Source: an uncultured Bacilli bacterium
Lineage (GTDB): Bacteria; Bacillota_I; Bacilli_A; RF39; UBA660
Assembly (NCBI GenBank): GCA_944332635.1
Contig: CALVKI010000068.1
Coordinates: forward strand, 1 to 44,128
Direction of reading: 5' to 3'
DNA: 44,128 nt
Part shown: one piece after another, positions 9,542 through 44,128 of the stretch
How positions within the stretch are numbered: position 1 is the stretch's first letter
Layout of the letters: every line of letters starts with the position of its first letter
Program-made: the position numbers and the translations under genes
Notes under the pieces: model-generated
Seen by the model: the letters and a program-made list of their open reading frames with translations, nothing else
Databases searched by the model: none
What the model was told of the DNA's origin: nothing

Positions 9542-10442
9542 AATATTTCTTATTTTCAAATATTCCTTTATTTTCTATAGCTCTTATTATTTGTGCTAGT
9601 AAATTAATGGCTATTTGTTCTGTTTTTCTATTTTCATCTCTAAGTGGGTTAAATTCTACTAAATCATATGAAACAACTTTATCTAAATGTTTCATGATTA
9701 GTTCATTTATTTTCATTGCTTCTTCTTCTGAAATTCCATCAAATACTGGAATGGATACTCCTGGTGCCACTTCAGGATCTATTAAATCTAGGTCATAACT
9801 AATATGTATTCCTTTAGTTTTTTCTCCTGCTATTCTAAAAGCTTCTTCCATAATTGCTTCTATACCTTTTTGTTTAATATCTTCAGTTGTAAATACGGTA
9901 ATCCCAGAATATTTAATATTATCTTTTTCCCAGTCATCAATACTTCTAGCTCCAACCACAACGGTTTTTGAAGGTTGAATAATATTTCCGTCATGAAAAT
10001 ATCTTAATTCTCCATTTTTATATCCTGTAATAGCTGCAAGTGGAAGCCCATGGATGTTTCCAGTAACTGTAGTATCAAAAGTATTATAATCAGTATGAGC
10101 ATCAAGCCATATGATTCCTATGTTTTCGTGTGTTTTAGCACTAGCTAACGCACTAGCGATGGCTACAGAATGATCACCACCAATAGTAATAGGAAAGTAT
10201 CCATCTTTTATTTTTTCTAGGATAGTTTGGTATAATTTTGTATTGAATTTTTCTATTTCATAGTCGTTTTTCCTTAAATCTGATAAATTTCTACTTTTTA
10301 TAATATTTTTATCTTGTACTAAAGAGATATTTTCTCCTTTGTAGAATCCTTTTAAATCGTTCATTAATTGAACTGGTCCTAGATGAGCTCCGTCGATATG
10401 AACTCCTAAGTCACTACCAGCTCCTATAATAAATGTTTTCAT
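9540..10442 (-). CDS. rocF: Arginase (ureohydrolase family)
   Basis: Arginase cleaves arginine to ornithine and urea with a two-manganese centre. All metal motifs are present: GGDHS near residue 90, DAHTDYN near 117, DLDLIDP near 222. GNIHGLPLA after the second motif is the arginase version rather than agmatinase, and VEFNPL near the end is also arginase-like. ATG 10442 is preceded by GAGGGTGA at good distance; a GTG nine bases upstream lies inside that ribosome site. Length is 300 residues. It is a lone minus-strand gene facing ftsZ. Substrate choice among ureohydrolases is good but not certain. Confidence 0.88.
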   Translation of the reverse strand: MKTFIIGAGSDLGVHIDGAHLGPVQLMNDLKGFYKGENISLVQDKNIIKSRNLSDLRKNDYEIEKFNTKLYQTILEKIKDGYFPITIGGDHSVAIASALASAKTHENIGIIWLDAHTDYNTFDTTVTGNIHGLPLAAITGYKNGELRYFHDGNIIQPSKTVVVGARSIDDWEKDNIKYSGITVFTTEDIKQKGIEAIMEEAFRIAGEKTKGIHISYDLDLIDPEVAPGVSIPVFDGISEEEAMKINELIMKHLDKVVSYDLVEFNPLRDENRKTEQIAINLLAQIIRAIENKGIFENKKY

Positions 10443-10520
10443 AAATTTCACCCTCTTACATTTTAGAATAAATACATGAGGATAGCAAGGAAAAGTCTTT
10501 TTTTTTAGTTTTTTTTACTG

Positions 10521-10526
10521 TATAAT
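10521..10526 (+). promoter_or_regulatory. -10 box of murE with a very short leader
   Basis: TATAAT is followed after six bases by GGGTGAT and then ATG 10543. Transcription starting about seven bases after the -10 box would leave a leader of about ten bases. No good -35 box is visible. Confidence 0.5.
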
Positions 10527-10542
10527 GTTTTTGGGTGATAGT

Positions 10543-11991
10543 ATGAAAAAGCTTAGTGAATTATATCCTGGAGTTTTAGAAGATGTAACAATTAAGGCAA
10601 TAAAAATAAATTCAAAGGAGTGTGAAAAAGGAGATCTATTTGTTTGCACAAAGGGTGTTACTGCTGATCGGCATGATTTTATAGATGATGCAATAAAACA
10701 CGGTGCTAGTGCTATTGTTGTTAGTCGTAATGTAGGAAATGTTTTGATTCCTGTTATAAAAGTGCCTGATACAAATCGAGAACTTCCTTATTTGTGTCAA
10801 AAATTTTATGACTATCCAGATCAGAAATTAAAAATTTTGGGGGTTACTGGTACTGATGGTAAAACTTCTACAGCAACTATTATGCAGACGTTAATTGGTA
10901 ACGATATATGTGGGTATATTGGAACTAATGGTAGAAATTGTGCTAAGTTTACTGGAAATAATCCTAATACAACTCCAGATGTTCATTTGCTTTATGCTTA
11001 TTTTAAGGAGTTTCTAGATTGTGGGTGTCAATATGTTGCAATGGAGGCAAGTAGTGAAGCTTTTTTTAGAGGAAGACTTCAAACTTTTCAATTTGATATT
11101 AGTGTTTATACTAATATCACGTCTGAGCATTTGAATATTCATGGAAGTTTTGAGAATTATTTGGAATGTAAAAAACAATTATTTAGACAAACAAAAAAAG
11201 ATGGTTATTGTGTATTAAATATAGATGATCCATATTATGAACAAGTTAAATCTGTTTGTAATGGAAAAATAGTTACTTATGGTATGAATGATAATGCTAC
11301 TTTACAAATAGTAGATTTCAAAGTATATTCTACACATACAATAATTCATTTTAAATATAAAAATGAAGTAGTAGAAGTTGATAGCCCATTGTTAGGCGAT
11401 TTTAATGTTTATAATTTAGCTGCTGGTCTTTTATCTGCTCTTTGTGCTGGTGTTTCAATGGAAAAAGCATTGCTACGTATCAAAAAAATAAAAATTAATG
11501 GTAGACTTGATTTGCTAAATACTAATACACCATATTCTGTAATGGTTGATTATGCTCATACACCTAATGGTATTATGAAGCTTTTAAATTTTGTTCATAC
11601 ATTAGATATTAATCGTAGTATTGTAGTAATCGGTCAGGCGGGAGAAAGGGATTATATTAAGAGGTCACAAGTAGGTGAGGTTGTGGTTAAAAATGCAACA
11701 TATGCAATTTTTACTTATGAAGATCCTAGAAGTGAAGATCCTAAAGATATATGTAATGACATTGTAAAGACTGTAAAAGATAAATATCATAATTATGAAA
11801 TAGTAATTGATAGACGTGAGGCTATTCAAAAAGCGATTAATATGGCGGGAACGAAAGATATGGTTTTAATTCTTGGTAAAGGAAATGAAACATATCAAAA
11901 ATTAAAAAATGAAGTGATTTATTTTAATGATGAGGAGGAAGCTTATCAAGCGGTCCTTAATCGTAAAGAAAAAGAAGGAGTTACTAATTAG
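10543..11991 (+). CDS. murE: UDP-MurNAc-tripeptide synthetase MurE
   Basis: MurE adds the third amino acid (meso-diaminopimelate or L-lysine) to UDP-MurNAc-Ala-Glu. The ATP loop GVTGTDGKTST is near residue 105; TNITSEHLNIHG is the Mur-ligase middle-domain signature; VDYAHTPNG opens the C-terminal domain. The third-residue motif, DNPR in meso-DAP enzymes, reads EDPRSEDP at 393-400; the kept Arg points to meso-DAP, although Asn is replaced by Asp. ATG 10543 follows GGGTGAT; an upstream in-frame ATG at 10525 lies in the -10 box and can be excluded. 482 residues. It is apart from the murG-ftsZ cluster. Confidence 0.93.
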   Translation: MKKLSELYPGVLEDVTIKAIKINSKECEKGDLFVCTKGVTADRHDFIDDAIKHGASAIVVSRNVGNVLIPVIKVPDTNRELPYLCQKFYDYPDQKLKILGVTGTDGKTSTATIMQTLIGNDICGYIGTNGRNCAKFTGNNPNTTPDVHLLYAYFKEFLDCGCQYVAMEASSEAFFRGRLQTFQFDISVYTNITSEHLNIHGSFENYLECKKQLFRQTKKDGYCVLNIDDPYYEQVKSVCNGKIVTYGMNDNATLQIVDFKVYSTHTIIHFKYKNEVVEVDSPLLGDFNVYNLAAGLLSALCAGVSMEKALLRIKKIKINGRLDLLNTNTPYSVMVDYAHTPNGIMKLLNFVHTLDINRSIVVIGQAGERDYIKRSQVGEVVVKNATYAIFTYEDPRSEDPKDICNDIVKTVKDKYHNYEIVIDRREAIQKAINMAGTKDMVLILGKGNETYQKLKNEVIYFNDEEEAYQAVLNRKEKEGVTN

Positions 11992-35299: not shown

Positions 35300-37573
35300 A
35301 TGGCAAAAAAGAAAAAAAAGAAACAAACTAAAAAGAGTTTTGAATATAAATATGAATTAATAGGTCTTGTTTTACTTATTTTATCAGTTTTAGGAATTGG
35401 TAAATTAGGTGTGGCTGGAGAGCTAGTTGCTTCTTTTGCTTTGTTTTTAGTTGGCTCTATTTATATGGTTTTATTGGCTATATTTTTTATTGTTGGTGGA
35501 TATTTACTTATCAAAAGAGAATGGCCAGATTTTTTTTCTACGAAACTTATAGGTCTTTATATTCTTAGTGTTGGATTTTTGGTAATTATGCATCAAGACT
35601 TTGTTTTAGAACATGATGGTAATATGATGCTTATTTTTAGGACTACTATGGATCAATTAGTTGCATCCTTTAATGGAGTTATGAATACTGGTATTTTAGA
35701 AAATTGGTATTCTGTTGGTGGCGGAATTATTGGATGTGTTTTTGCTATTATATTTGATAAATTGTTTTCTTATACGGGTATGCAAATAGTTTCTTGGGTA
35801 TTTGTTATAGTTGGATTTTGTTTGTTTACTGGTTTTTCTATTGTTGATTTTGTACGTGATAAGATTTCAAGACAAAAAGAAAAACTAATACAGGTTAAAG
35901 AACGTAAAATTAGTAAAGAAGAAAAAGAGGAGAAAAAAGCTGTTATTATTAGTAATGGTGATGAGGAGTCTATAGAAAAAGATAATCATATTAAAATTAC
36001 TAGTATTGAGGATTTGAAAAAAGTTCCTATAAAAGAAAATGTTGTGGATGAAAAAGATGATCAAGTTAGTACAGGTGTTATTGTTACTAATCATGAATAT
36101 CAATTACCACCAATTAGTTTATTGAATCAGCCTAAGAAAAAGCAGAAGGAGACAGATGAATCTTCTATTGAAAAGAATATTGAAACTTTAGAGAGAGTTT
36201 TAAAAGATTTTAAAATCGTTGGTAAGGTAGTGGAAGTTCATATTGGACCTACTGTTGCTCAATATGAACTTGAAATCGCTAGTGGTACTAGGGTTAATAA
36301 AATCACTAGTATTAATCGTGAAATTGCTTTAGCTCTTGCTAAAAAGGATGTTAGAATTGAAGCTCCTATTCCTGGTAAGAACACTGTGGGTATTGAGTTT
36401 GCTAATGATGTTGCAACTCCTGTTAGTTTTTATGAAATAATTAGTAGTAAACAGATGATGAATGCTATGGATAAAAAGTTGATGGTTCCACTTGGTAAGA
36501 GTATCATGGGAGATATTGGTGTTTGTGAAATTAATAAAATGCCACATATGTTGATTGCTGGTACTACTGGTAGTGGTAAATCTGTATGTGTTAACGGTAT
36601 TATTTGTTCTATTTTAATGCGAGCAAGACCCGATGAAGTAAAACTTGTTATGGTTGATCCTAAAGTAGTTGAGTTATCTGTTTATAATGGAGTTCCACAT
36701 TTGATGTGTCCTGTTGTTTCTGATCCTAAAAAAGCAGCTGTTGCCTTAGCTAAAATGGTTGCGGAAATGGAGCGGCGGTATGAAACATTTAGTGAGACGC
36801 AAACTAAAAATATAGAGAGTTATAATGCCTATATTGATAAATGGAATGAAGAACATAAGGTAGATGGAGTTAAAAAATCAAGACTTCCATATATTGTTGT
36901 CATTATTGATGAGCTTGCTGATTTGATGATGGTTGCTGCAAAAGAAGTTGAAGATTCTATTCTTAGAATTACACAAAAAGCACGTGCGGCAGGAATTCAT
37001 TTGATAGTTGCAACACAAAGACCTTCCACAGATGTTATTACCGGATTGATTAAAGCTAATATTCCTTCTCGTATTTCATTTGCTGTAGGTTCTGGAATTG
37101 ACTCTCGTACAATTTTAGATCAAACTGGAGCTGAAAAATTACTTGGTAAAGGAGATATGTTATTTTTACCAATTGGTGTTAATTCACCAACTCGTATTCA
37201 GGGTTCCTTTATTACCGATGATGAAATTAAGAGAATTATTGATTTTACTGTAGAACAACAAAAGGCTCAATATGATGAGGCTTTGATGAATTTGGAAACG
37301 ACAGATCATAGTGTAAGTAGTGTTAGTGGTCAAGAGTTTGGTGATGCGGCTAATGATGAAGATCCTTTATATAATGATATTGTTCAGTTTGTTATAGAAA
37401 GTCAAAAAGCTAGTGCATCATTATTGCAAAGACGTTTTAAATTGGGTTATAATCGAGCGGCGAGACTTATTGATTTATTGGAAGAAAGGGGTATTATTGG
37501 TCCAACAAATGGTTCCAAACCTAGAGAAGTTCTTGTACAATTAGATAGCAGTAGTGAAGAAGAGACACAATAG
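35300..37573 (+). CDS. spoIIIE: DNA translocase FtsK/SpoIIIE
   Basis: A membrane-bound ATPase that pumps chromosomal DNA through the closing septum. Four to five transmembrane helices (about 20-185), a charged linker, then the motor: the alpha domain from about 290, Walker A GTTGSGKS near 421, Walker B YIVVIIDELADLM near 535, and ARAAGIHLIVATQRPSTDVITG. The C-terminal gamma winged-helix is present (SASLLQRRFKLGYNRAARLID). 757 residues. A TATAAT box at 35263-35268 and GGGAG at 35284-35288 lie upstream. This is the only FtsK-type gene seen; given sigK it could serve both division and spore formation. Confidence 0.95.
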   Translation: MAKKKKKKQTKKSFEYKYELIGLVLLILSVLGIGKLGVAGELVASFALFLVGSIYMVLLAIFFIVGGYLLIKREWPDFFSTKLIGLYILSVGFLVIMHQDFVLEHDGNMMLIFRTTMDQLVASFNGVMNTGILENWYSVGGGIIGCVFAIIFDKLFSYTGMQIVSWVFVIVGFCLFTGFSIVDFVRDKISRQKEKLIQVKERKISKEEKEEKKAVIISNGDEESIEKDNHIKITSIEDLKKVPIKENVVDEKDDQVSTGVIVTNHEYQLPPISLLNQPKKKQKETDESSIEKNIETLERVLKDFKIVGKVVEVHIGPTVAQYELEIASGTRVNKITSINREIALALAKKDVRIEAPIPGKNTVGIEFANDVATPVSFYEIISSKQMMNAMDKKLMVPLGKSIMGDIGVCEINKMPHMLIAGTTGSGKSVCVNGIICSILMRARPDEVKLVMVDPKVVELSVYNGVPHLMCPVVSDPKKAAVALAKMVAEMERRYETFSETQTKNIESYNAYIDKWNEEHKVDGVKKSRLPYIVVIIDELADLMMVAAKEVEDSILRITQKARAAGIHLIVATQRPSTDVITGLIKANIPSRISFAVGSGIDSRTILDQTGAEKLLGKGDMLFLPIGVNSPTRIQGSFITDDEIKRIIDFTVEQQKAQYDEALMNLETTDHSVSSVSGQEFGDAANDEDPLYNDIVQFVIESQKASASLLQRRFKLGYNRAARLIDLLEERGIIGPTNGSKPREVLVQLDSSSEEETQ

Positions 37574-40340: not shown

Positions 40341-41607
40341 TTTAAAAGGACTGGATTTAGTTGCTTATACTGAAACTCTTTCTAATGGATTAGATATTAT
40401 TTTTGTTCCATTTGAAAAAAAATCTAATTATTTTATTAGTTATGCAACAAGATTTGGAAGTGAGATTACTAGTTTTACACCAAGTGGGGAAAAAAGAATC
40501 TATAAAGTACCAGACGGTATTGCACATTTTTTAGAGCATAAAATGTTTGAGCAGGAGTCGGGTGAAGATCCTTTTGCTTATTTTTCTAAAAGTGGTACAG
40601 GCGCTAATGCATCAACATCTTATGATAATACTCAATATATTTGTTATGGTACTAAAAACTTTGAAGATAATTTGAGATACTTATTACAATATGTTAATGC
40701 ACCTTATTATACTGATGAGAATGTTGAGAAAGAAAAGGGTATTATTGCTGAAGAGTTAAAAATGTATGCTGATTTACCTGATGTGCAGTTAGAAACGAGA
40801 TTGCGCCAAAATATATATCATGTTCATCCTAGAAGAGTAGATATTGGTGGTAGTGTTGATGAAATTTATAAAATAACTAAAGAGGATTTGTATTTATGCT
40901 ATAATAATTTTTATAGTCCTAATAATATGTTTATTCTTGTTGTTGGTAAATTTCCTATGGATGAAGCTATGAGTATTATTCATCAAGAATTAGATAGTAA
41001 AGAAAATTTGGAAAAGGCAGAAGTGTTTCTTATTAAAGAAAGGAAGAGTGTTCGTAAAAAACAAGATAGTTTTGTTGGAAATATTCAAGTTCCTAAGATT
41101 GGTGTGGGATTAAAGATTGCTATTTCTGACTTGGGTCAATATGCTGATTTAGAACTTGATTTATATTTAACTATGTTTACTACTATGCTTTTCGGTTCTT
41201 CTTCATTATTTAGAGAGCAGGCTCGTAGTGAAAAGCTTTTAAATAATTTTTATAGTGATTGGGATAATACGGAAGAGTATAAAACATTTTTGATTTTATC
41301 TTCTACTAATCATCCAGATAGTTTAATAGAAGCAATTAAAGAAGAATTTTCTAAGCATGAATTAGATGAAGCGATGTTTAATCGAATGAAAAAAGTATGG
41401 ATTGCTAATGAAGTTAAAATGGCTGATTATATTGATTCAACCGTAAATAATGTTTATGATGATATGATTCGTTATCATAGAGTCATTCCTAATAAAGTCG
41501 AAGTAATTCGTAAAATGAATATAAAAACATTAGAAAAAATTGTATCTAAAATTGATTTTGATAATTTGAGTGTTGTTATTATGAATGCTCAAGAAGAAGT
41601 ATTATAA
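40327..41607 (+). CDS. ymfH: M16-family zinc peptidase YmfH-like, active subunit
   Basis: Zinc peptidase with intact HFLEH (H67, E70, H71) and the downstream third ligand in the EKEKGIIAEELKMY segment. The rest of both M16 half-domains is present, including GSSSLFREQARSEKLL. 427 residues. ATG 40327 follows GAGGGTGATAGT and overlaps the ymfF stop by 14 bases, so the two are coupled and probably form a heterodimer. A terminator begins in its stop codon. Confidence 0.9.
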   Translation: MKKINLKGLDLVAYTETLSNGLDIIFVPFEKKSNYFISYATRFGSEITSFTPSGEKRIYKVPDGIAHFLEHKMFEQESGEDPFAYFSKSGTGANASTSYDNTQYICYGTKNFEDNLRYLLQYVNAPYYTDENVEKEKGIIAEELKMYADLPDVQLETRLRQNIYHVHPRRVDIGGSVDEIYKITKEDLYLCYNNFYSPNNMFILVVGKFPMDEAMSIIHQELDSKENLEKAEVFLIKERKSVRKKQDSFVGNIQVPKIGVGLKIAISDLGQYADLELDLYLTMFTTMLFGSSSLFREQARSEKLLNNFYSDWDNTEEYKTFLILSSTNHPDSLIEAIKEEFSKHELDEAMFNRMKKVWIANEVKMADYIDSTVNNVYDDMIRYHRVIPNKVEVIRKMNIKTLEKIVSKIDFDNLSVVIMNAQEEVL

Positions 41608-41629
41608 CTTGCTTTTTAGCAAGTTTTTA
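41605..41629 (+). terminator. Terminator overlapping the ymfH stop
   Basis: AACTTGC and GCAAGTT pair with loop TTTTTA, then TTTT follows. Confidence 0.88.
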
Positions 41630-41950: not shown

Positions 41951-41978
41951 TTGACAATCGTGCTATTAGATGTATAAT
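41951..41978 (+). promoter_or_regulatory. Strong sigma-A promoter of the kinase-like gene
   Basis: Perfect TTGACA (41951-41956) and TATAAT (41973-41978) with a 16-base spacer, the best consensus promoter in the window. The expected transcription start near 41985 lies in the right arm of the inverted repeat. Confidence 0.85.
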
Positions 41979-41992
41979 AGATAGCACGATTG
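41955..41992. promoter_or_regulatory. 12-bp inverted repeat straddling the -10 box (candidate operator)
   Basis: CAATCGTGCTAT (41955-41966) and ATAGCACGATTG (41981-41992) are perfect inverted copies separated by 14 bases that hold the -10 box. The left arm touches the -35 box and the right arm covers the start point. RNA from this promoter would lack the left arm, so a hairpin in its own RNA is unlikely and a protein-binding operator is the simpler reading. Confidence 0.7.
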
Positions 41993-42008
41993 AAATGGGG
42001 AAAAGATA

Positions 42009-42812
42009 ATGAAAGATTTAAAAGTTTTAAAGGATGATTATAGATTATTGGTAACAACTGATGGTAAGTATGTAGTTAAAAAATTTAAGTATTTGGGGAG
42101 AGAAGAAAACAAACAATTATCTGGAAAATTAGAGATAGGAACAAAAATCAAAATTGAAGGATTGGTCACACCTATAGATTTTACTTACAAACATGGTAAA
42201 GTAGATGAAGTCTATTATCCTTTCGCTTCGGGTAGAATTTTTGCTGATTTACTTAGTGAGAGTGGTTTTAATCTTCCTCTTGATGTTATTATCGATTATA
42301 TGGAAAATATAGAGAGAATAGTTAAGTTAGGACATTCTCAGGAACAAAAAATTATTTTTCCAGATTTATTAACGGAGGGGAATATCCTTTATGATAAAGG
42401 AACTGGTAAGGTTAATATAGTTGATTTCGATGGCCTTCAAGTTGGAAATTATAAGAGCGATGTGATTAGTGATTTTATCTTTAATTCTAATACATCTAGT
42501 TTACTTTTAAGTTCTAAGTATTATAGAGATGGTTTATTCACAAAAAATGTAGATTTATTTTCTATTTATGTTTATCTTGTATATTATTCTACAAAGATGA
42601 GGCTGCCTGCTGACCCTCAATTAAAAGAAAACCTTCTTGATCACTTATCTATTGCTGGTATTTTAGGAACGGATGCTGGTCAAAAGATTATGAATTTATT
42701 TAATCCACAACAGGATAATGATTATTTAGGAGATTCATTTAGACAATTAAAAGAAAATTATATTTTGACTGACTCAGTTCCTAAACAACCTAGGCAATAT
42801 GTTAGAAAATAA
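42009..42812 (+). CDS. Protein-kinase-like fold protein
   Basis: A 267-residue soluble protein with kinase-like landmarks. Near the N-terminus LVTTDGKYVVKKFKYLG resembles strands 2-3 with a candidate ATP Lys. Around residues 119-128 DLLTEGNILYD resembles the catalytic loop (Asp, then Asn), but Asn is six residues after Asp rather than five. VNIVDFDGLQVGNYKSD follows, matching the DFG-like metal motif in the DxDxxQ form of bacterial TerY/PP2C-linked kinases. The glycine loop is weak. Protein kinase, small-molecule kinase, or pseudokinase all remain open. GGGGA is the ribosome site. Single gene beside a broken transposase. Confidence 0.6.
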   Translation: MKDLKVLKDDYRLLVTTDGKYVVKKFKYLGREENKQLSGKLEIGTKIKIEGLVTPIDFTYKHGKVDEVYYPFASGRIFADLLSESGFNLPLDVIIDYMENIERIVKLGHSQEQKIIFPDLLTEGNILYDKGTGKVNIVDFDGLQVGNYKSDVISDFIFNSNTSSLLLSSKYYRDGLFTKNVDLFSIYVYLVYYSTKMRLPADPQLKENLLDHLSIAGILGTDAGQKIMNLFNPQQDNDYLGDSFRQLKENYILTDSVPKQPRQYVRK

Positions 42813-43130
42813 AGAACTTACGATGCTATTAATTGAACTTTTCAATAAACTGTCAATAAAAGAGTAGATATAAGAGATTTTAATTAAATTTTGATAGGGT
42901 TTTATATTCAACTGAATTTCTAAATATATCTGTGTAAAATAATAATTCTTCTATGATAAAATTGAGGAAATATATGGAATTTATCAAGTGCCATTTCGAT
43001 ACGAAATAATAAGTTGTGAGAAAAGCAAACTTATATTGTTTTATGTATTGATGTGTATTACTAGGAGAAAATGAAGTGGTAAGGTTTGTTAAATAGTAAA
43101 ATGCAATTAGTTGAAAAATATTATGATTAA
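42813..43130. other. Gene-free stretch between the kinase-like gene and the IS30 remnant
   Basis: AT-rich. A 99-codon minus-strand frame (42880-43179) has no ribosome site and runs through a hairpin, so I reject it. TCTGTGTAAA near 42932-42941 is the reverse complement of part of the motif at 390-400. Confidence 0.45.
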
Positions 43131-43163
43131 AAGAGAAAAAACAACTTTTTCTCTTGTTTTTTT
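43131..43163. terminator. Hairpin between the kinase-like gene and the transposase remnant
   Basis: AAGAGAAAAA and TTTTTCTCTT form a ten-pair stem with loop ACAAC. On the + strand GTTTTTTT follows, making it a plausible terminator for the kinase-like gene. On the minus strand a shorter TTTT follows. Confidence 0.6.
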
Positions 43164-43231
43164 CAAAAATTAAATGCAATTTAAATCATTTATATTTAAT
43201 CAATTGTTTTCTTTTTCTACAAATTATTTAT

Positions 43232-44128
43232 TCAATAATTTGTTAAATTATCAAAAGATATTCCTTTTGGAATTATGTATCTAATAAATTCATGATTTCT
43301 TTCTATCCTACCTTTTTGCCAAGATGAATATGGTTCTGTATAAAATACATTTATTAGTTTTTCTCCAGTTTCATGATTAAATTCGATGTCTTCGGGTTTA
43401 GAAAATTCCCAACCGTTATCAGTTAAGATTACTTCAAACATTATTTTATATAAATTATATCCTATAAGATTTCTAATTTTATTAAATACTTTATAAACTT
43501 CTGAGGATTTATATTTTTTTATAATAAACATTAACATTAATTTAGATTTTCTAAAATATAAAGTCATAATGTATTTATTATCTTTAAACTTTCCTATAAT
43601 AGTATCCATTTCAACAATATTAGTATTTGGATTCTTAAGTATATATTTATTAAAATCTTCTATTTTATGCCCTTTTTTAATAACATTATCTTTTGAAATG
43701 GTTTTAATTTTTTTTTTTATTTCTATGTTTATAACTAAAGAATCTTGCGAGCATTTGATCATTGATACTTGAAAAATAACCTTTATGAACATACTTATAA
43801 AAAGATTGGATAGATTTAGGAAATTCATTTTCAATATTCTTAAATATATGTAATATTGGTTGATTTTTATCTTTTATTTTATTAAAGTAATCATTCTAAT
43901 ATTCAACTTCATCAATTGAGATATCAATACCAATATGAGAATATTTTAATTTATTTTCATAATCTTTTTGAGCTTCCTTAAAGTTATAATAAAATTTTTT
44001 CATATTACAGTGCCCTTTTTTTGAACAATTAACGCAAACAAAAGGATATTTCTTTGTCTTGTCACATATAAGTAAAGAATTATTAGATTTTCTACGATAT
44101 TTAATTTCTCTAGAAATAGTAGAAGATT
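43232..44128 (-). pseudogene. IS30-family transposase, frameshifted and interrupted (runs off window)
   Basis: Reading from the right edge: a helix-turn-helix end (STISREIKYRR), a Cys-rich stretch (CVNCSKKGHC), then a linker with an in-frame amber codon (TAG at 43898-43896). At an A11 run (43708-43718) the frame shifts; removing one A restores the path into the DDE domain. There VEMDTIIGKF holds the first Asp, LTDNGWEF the second, and GRIERNHEFIRYIIPKG the Glu, the IS30 order. The frame ends early at FDNLTNY, where active members continue about 40 residues. The element is therefore dead as it stands. No terminal repeat could be fixed. Confidence 0.82.

Follow-up and report, generated by a model that had tools for sequence, protein, structure and literature searches.

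A perfect inverted repeat framing the -10 box of a consensus promoter ahead of a kinase-fold gene in an uncultured Bacilli bacterium: a candidate operator

It is common for a strong promoter to carry a palindromic site, and the described systems closest to the locus studied here are the operators placed over the sigma-A -10 box, namely those of HrcA/CIRCE, Fur and HTH/XRE autoregulation. The repeat that we analyzed, which lies near the end of a 44,128-nt contig (the whole of this contig, CALVKI010000068.1, is referred to as the window), is like these sites in that a palindrome covers the core of a strong promoter. It differs from the HrcA/CIRCE, Fur and HTH/XRE sites compared in that its arm sequence, its 12-bp arms and its 14-nt spacer are unmatched among them, and in being a single-copy site with no regulator recognized nearby.

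Repressor-controlled sigma-A promoters have consensus -35 and -10 boxes at a spacing of 16-18 nt, and TTGACA-16-TATAAT fits this description. On the plus strand, the -35 box TTGACA (41951-41956, 6/6) is followed after 16 nt by the -10 box TATAAT (41973-41978, 6/6), as claimed by an earlier, sequence-only reading of this DNA; the pair is the sole 12/12 promoter match in the final 3.1 kb of the window, and the 1.45-Mb assembly has 22 such matches in all. The perfect 12-bp inverted repeat announced by the same reading is also present, on the plus strand as well, with a left arm (CAATCGTGCTAT, 41955-41966) that takes in the final two bases of the -35 box, a 14-nt spacer (TAGATGTATAATAG) and a right arm (ATAGCACGATTG, 41981-41992) that spans the predicted transcription start. 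The -10 box had been placed exactly between the arms; it does sit within the spacer, though slightly off centre, as 6 nt separate it from the left arm and 2 nt from the right one. Transcription is predicted, from position only, to start at about 41984-41986, so the left arm would remain untranscribed, no RNA hairpin would form in a transcript from this promoter, and the repeat would act only as DNA, if at all. The -10 box is 30 nt from the start of the kinase-fold gene, and a direct reading of the plus strand places a probable ribosome-binding site, a TGGGGAAAAG / GGGGAAAAG stretch, at 41996-42006 ahead of the ATG. A terminator-like hairpin (41606-41625, plus strand) closes the M16 peptidase gene upstream and separates it from the kinase-fold gene, which therefore seems to form a separate unit.

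We estimated how often such a repeat would arise by chance from 300 first-order shuffles of the window, counting perfect arms of at least 12 bp with loops of 3-25 nt; these statistics refer to the 44-kb window only. The composition-matched shuffles gave 0.27 expected occurrences per 44 kb for arms of at least 12 bp of any composition and 0.007 when the arm also had at least 5 G+C, so that a palindrome of this kind over core promoter elements goes beyond chance. The real window contains four repeats with arms of at least 12 bp, and the promoter repeat alone reaches at least 5 G+C. Pure chance is made unlikely by this quality together with the location of the repeat on 1 of the 22 perfect promoters, although the argument is tempered by the fact that the repeat had been picked for being striking, and by itself it is rare yet not unheard of. 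A second perfect 12-bp repeat with a 14-nt spacer lies inside ftsK (36234-36271); it is AT-rich, with 3 G+C, and is probably background.

Palindromes also accompany other perfect promoters of this genome. The genes for HrcA (Pfam HrcA, 3.5e-28) and for an AAA/Clp-type ATPase each have a perfect promoter with CIRCE, a FUR-family gene has one with the palindrome TGATAATtATTATCA, an HTH_3 gene has one with GTCACTaaaAGTGAC within its own spacer, and the gene of a heavy-metal-binding (HMA) protein has one with TTGAATAgtTATTCAA. Judged by their sequences and by the known habits of these protein families, these palindromes are plausibly functional operators to which regulators bind, and for this genome a palindrome on a strong promoter appears to be normal regulation, which makes an operator the natural reading of the repeat ahead of the kinase-fold gene. 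The CIRCE pattern TTAGCACTC-N9-GAGTGCTAA, searched with up to 3 mismatches, matched 7 places in the genome, and the kinase-gene repeat was not among them. At the hrcA promoter (L035, G000:C38), two CIRCE-like elements lie in tandem, one of them with TTGACA in its spacer, and the half-sites GTGCTAA and TTAGCAC flank the -10 box in reverse order.

The gene itself (42009-42812, plus strand) has an ATG start and an intact ORF that encodes a 267-aa protein. The sequence-only reading had called the product kinase-like, and structure prediction bears this out: the AlphaFold model, built with 18 homologues, has a pLDDT of 93 and a pTM of 0.90, and in searches with Foldseek and VIA-align protein kinases matched residues 1-262 with Z ~17 over 226-242 residues; the top structural matches include CaMKII and PknB, and identity to solved kinases is 12-18%. 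The two-lobed protein-kinase fold thus runs over the full chain of the predicted model. The window protein alone falls below every Pfam and NCBIfam cut-off, while the family profile matches CK2 (4.6e-8) in an alignment that pairs the Asp and Asn of the catalytic loop and the Asp after them. The candidate catalytic residues, placed by profile or visually, are D119, N125 and D139, and the candidate ATP lysine is K24/K25; the His and Arg of HRD, the catalytic-loop Lys and the Gly of DFG are all replaced. Because the positions of the catalytic Lys, Asp and Asn and of the metal-binding Asp are filled, the protein is probably an active kinase, and on its predicted structure it is best assigned to a divergent family with a Hanks-like kinase fold. 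It resembles Hanks-type Ser/Thr kinases (the fold of PknB, CaMKII and CK2) over its full length, but it has a PD motif in place of HRD, one extra residue ahead of the Asn, and DFD instead of DFG. The kinase domains of class III/IV lanthionine synthetases (LanKC/LanL) offer a second comparison, in which LanKC was weakly matched by 8/18 family members (best 4.3e-6), but the window protein was unmatched and is a stand-alone domain without lyase or cyclase parts.

Several other identities for this gene were considered and rejected. Known defence kinases gave weak PADLOC matches (STK_OB, PD-T4-6) in a few homologues only and none for the window protein, and a toxin-antitoxin pair with the kinase as toxin would call for a small partner ORF, of which none with recognizable features adjoins the gene. 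As regards a phage or mobile origin, viral contigs contained no relatives of the window protein.

A profile search placed the kinase-fold family in 73/193 genomes of the same taxonomic family and in 13/16 genomes of the genus. Its distribution is patchy and its copy number reaches seven per genome, six of them in a row; the cluster of seven (L074 5188-12713, G189:C1) is broken by two ORFs of unknown family (9824-10780 and 10781-11842). The neighbours of family members vary between genomes and are, by eye, mostly housekeeping-like, and no constant partner gene was found across the family loci. A search for related loci among genome contigs with the window protein as the query found none. The gene had been taken for an accessory function beside an unstable region, and the comparison with relatives agrees: none of the 14 other genus genomes with an orthologous M16 gene encodes a family member after the M16 pair within the stretch read (one stretch, L144, stops ~0.3 kb beyond the M16 gene), and the content after the M16 gene varies across the genus genomes read. 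This absence and this variability suggest, most simply, that the kinase-fold gene was inserted as an accessory gene into a variable site. In the stretches compared (L133-L146), the conserved M16 peptidase pair is followed in several genomes by an HTH/XRE-type regulator and a membrane-protein-like gene, and in others by large secreted-looking proteins.

Strong promoters recur in this family. When promoters were scored within 90 nt upstream, at least 11/12 positions matched in 7/15 core members (E below 1e-68) and in 2/166 other genes of the same stretches (Fisher p = 2e-7), a comparison in which many control genes are operon-internal, with no promoter of their own expected, and in which the window gene, itself chosen for its promoter, counts among the 7. 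The closest homologue (G040, 45%) scored 8 in this count, as its first ATG falls inside the promoter; ~27 nt ahead of the ATG that aligns with the window start it has TTGACA-16-TATAAT, and scoring it from that ATG would raise the number of strong promoters in the family. From the upstream sequences, strong promoters are a trait of the gene family rather than of the window locus. In another homologue (L019, G174:C1), a perfect 12-bp repeat with T after it reaches into the promoter region and seems to be the terminator of the preceding gene.

The repeat itself was found in one genome only among the genomes searched. Absence of the repeat from related genomes had been named in advance as a refutation, and this check went against the proposal: the promoter of the closest homologue is perfect and stands at a nearly equal distance from the start, but lacks the repeat, as do the upstream regions of all other homologues read. 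The further copies for which a search had also been suggested were likewise absent from the rest of the genome, the genus and the sampled family. In its own assembly, which is 71% complete, there is no second copy, and the search returned the repeat itself and one 3-mismatch match elsewhere in the window. None of the 15 other genus genomes has it with 3 mismatches allowed, and the matches that 7 other family genomes gave at 3 mismatches are isolated, imperfect and no better than chance, in a search whose reversed-pattern control gave matches too. A collection of ~85,000 species did not contain it; short-arm matches were seen in viral contigs, and we give them no weight, since 16 specified bases with variable spacing will match by chance in a large collection. 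The palindrome is thus neither kept in orthologous promoters nor common to a regulon across the homologues, genome, genus and sampled family. A shared regulon was rejected for lack of a second site in the 71% complete genome, and an operator shared across genomes was rejected in view of the empty genus and ~85,000-species searches and the chance-like family matches. Single occurrence in a 71% complete assembly also means that no autoregulated regulator gene offers itself as a candidate.

We consider the repeat most likely to be a lineage-specific DNA operator at which an unlinked repressor blocks polymerase, a reading to which we give a probability of roughly 55%. An unlinked repressor, either dimeric or a dimer of dimers, would bind both arms, occlude the DNA between the end of the -35 box and position ~+8, and so keep RNA polymerase off a promoter that is otherwise fully consensus; it would control a single accessory gene, standing as its own unit, for a small protein with a Hanks-like kinase fold. 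We infer the protein binding, the repression and the kinase activity. The earlier interpretation is partly borne out, in the promoter architecture, the kinase fold, the absence of a recognized regulator alongside and the accessory gene in a variable neighbourhood; a gene normally off and inducible, as that reading pictured it, would be conjecture. In favour of an operator are the expectation of 0.007 such repeats per window and the location on one of the 22 perfect promoters of the assembly, and against it are the single copy in the 71% complete assembly and the lack of any homologue with the repeat. The geometry also counts against it, as the 14-nt spacer and the centre-to-centre distance of 26 bp set the arms ~2.5 helical turns apart, which is unusual for one simple repressor dimer. 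A rival reading is an incidental repeat, a palindrome produced by chance or template switching on a constitutively strong promoter of the family type, which we regard as possible but rather unlikely: the closest homologue does with the same perfect promoter and no repeat, near-consensus promoters are frequent among the core members, the repeat was found nowhere else searched, and one of the same geometry lies within ftsK, but only 0.007 such G+C-rich repeats are expected per window even before framing of the -10 box is required.

Three further explanations appear much less probable than either a lineage-specific operator or an incidental palindrome. A degenerate HrcA (CIRCE) promoter is suggested by the resemblance of TTGACAATCGTGCTA to TTGACAAGTGCTAA of the CIRCE promoters of this genome, several of whose elements have TTGACA in the spacer followed by GTGCTAA-like letters, and by the half-sites on either side of the hrcA -10 box; here, however, the half-sites are reversed (GTGCTAT...ATAGCAC), the 3-mismatch CIRCE search missed the site, and the left arm taken as a right half-site has 7 mismatches when counted by hand, making this origin very improbable. 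We give equally little credit to the repeat acting as a structure, be it a cruciform in the DNA or, in read-through transcripts, a hairpin, rather than as a protein site. The single strand does fold with z = -7.4, but a transcript from this promoter would carry the right arm only, a 12-bp cruciform with a 14-nt loop would be poor, and no T-run follows the repeat, so it is no terminator; an RNA element was rejected, as Rfam gave no match. Repression of the promoter by the kinase-like protein itself is the least credible of all, for while the gene is the sole member of its unit and no other regulator was recognized adjoining it, the model is a kinase fold throughout with no recognized DNA-binding domain, and relatives of the same fold lack the repeat.

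As regulation, a lineage-specific operator would be ordinary, much like the palindromes on other perfect promoters of this genome. The less ordinary part is the patchy kinase-fold family, with up to seven copies and near-consensus promoters in its core members. If highly expressed, a stand-alone kinase-fold protein suggests bulk use, as in stress, defence or a structural/decoy role. More speculatively, and with clear doubt on our part, the genes may form a stand-alone kinase-fold family of low-G+C bacteria, lineage-restricted and sometimes multicopy, kept under unusually strong single-gene promoters, whose individual copies gain operators of their own after insertion, so that an accessory kinase otherwise expressed at a high level comes under a new repressor in each lineage.

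The surroundings of the gene agree with the earlier statement that no regulator is encoded next to it, as no recognizable DNA-binding protein adjoins it, in a contig that ends 1.3 kb downstream. That end is occupied on the minus strand (42880-44126) by an apparently broken IS30-like transposase, made up of an integrase-core-like ORF (43232-43834) that matches rve_3 weakly and an N-terminal part (43896-44126) detached from it; the genome has one relative at another place (G000:C64, 46%).
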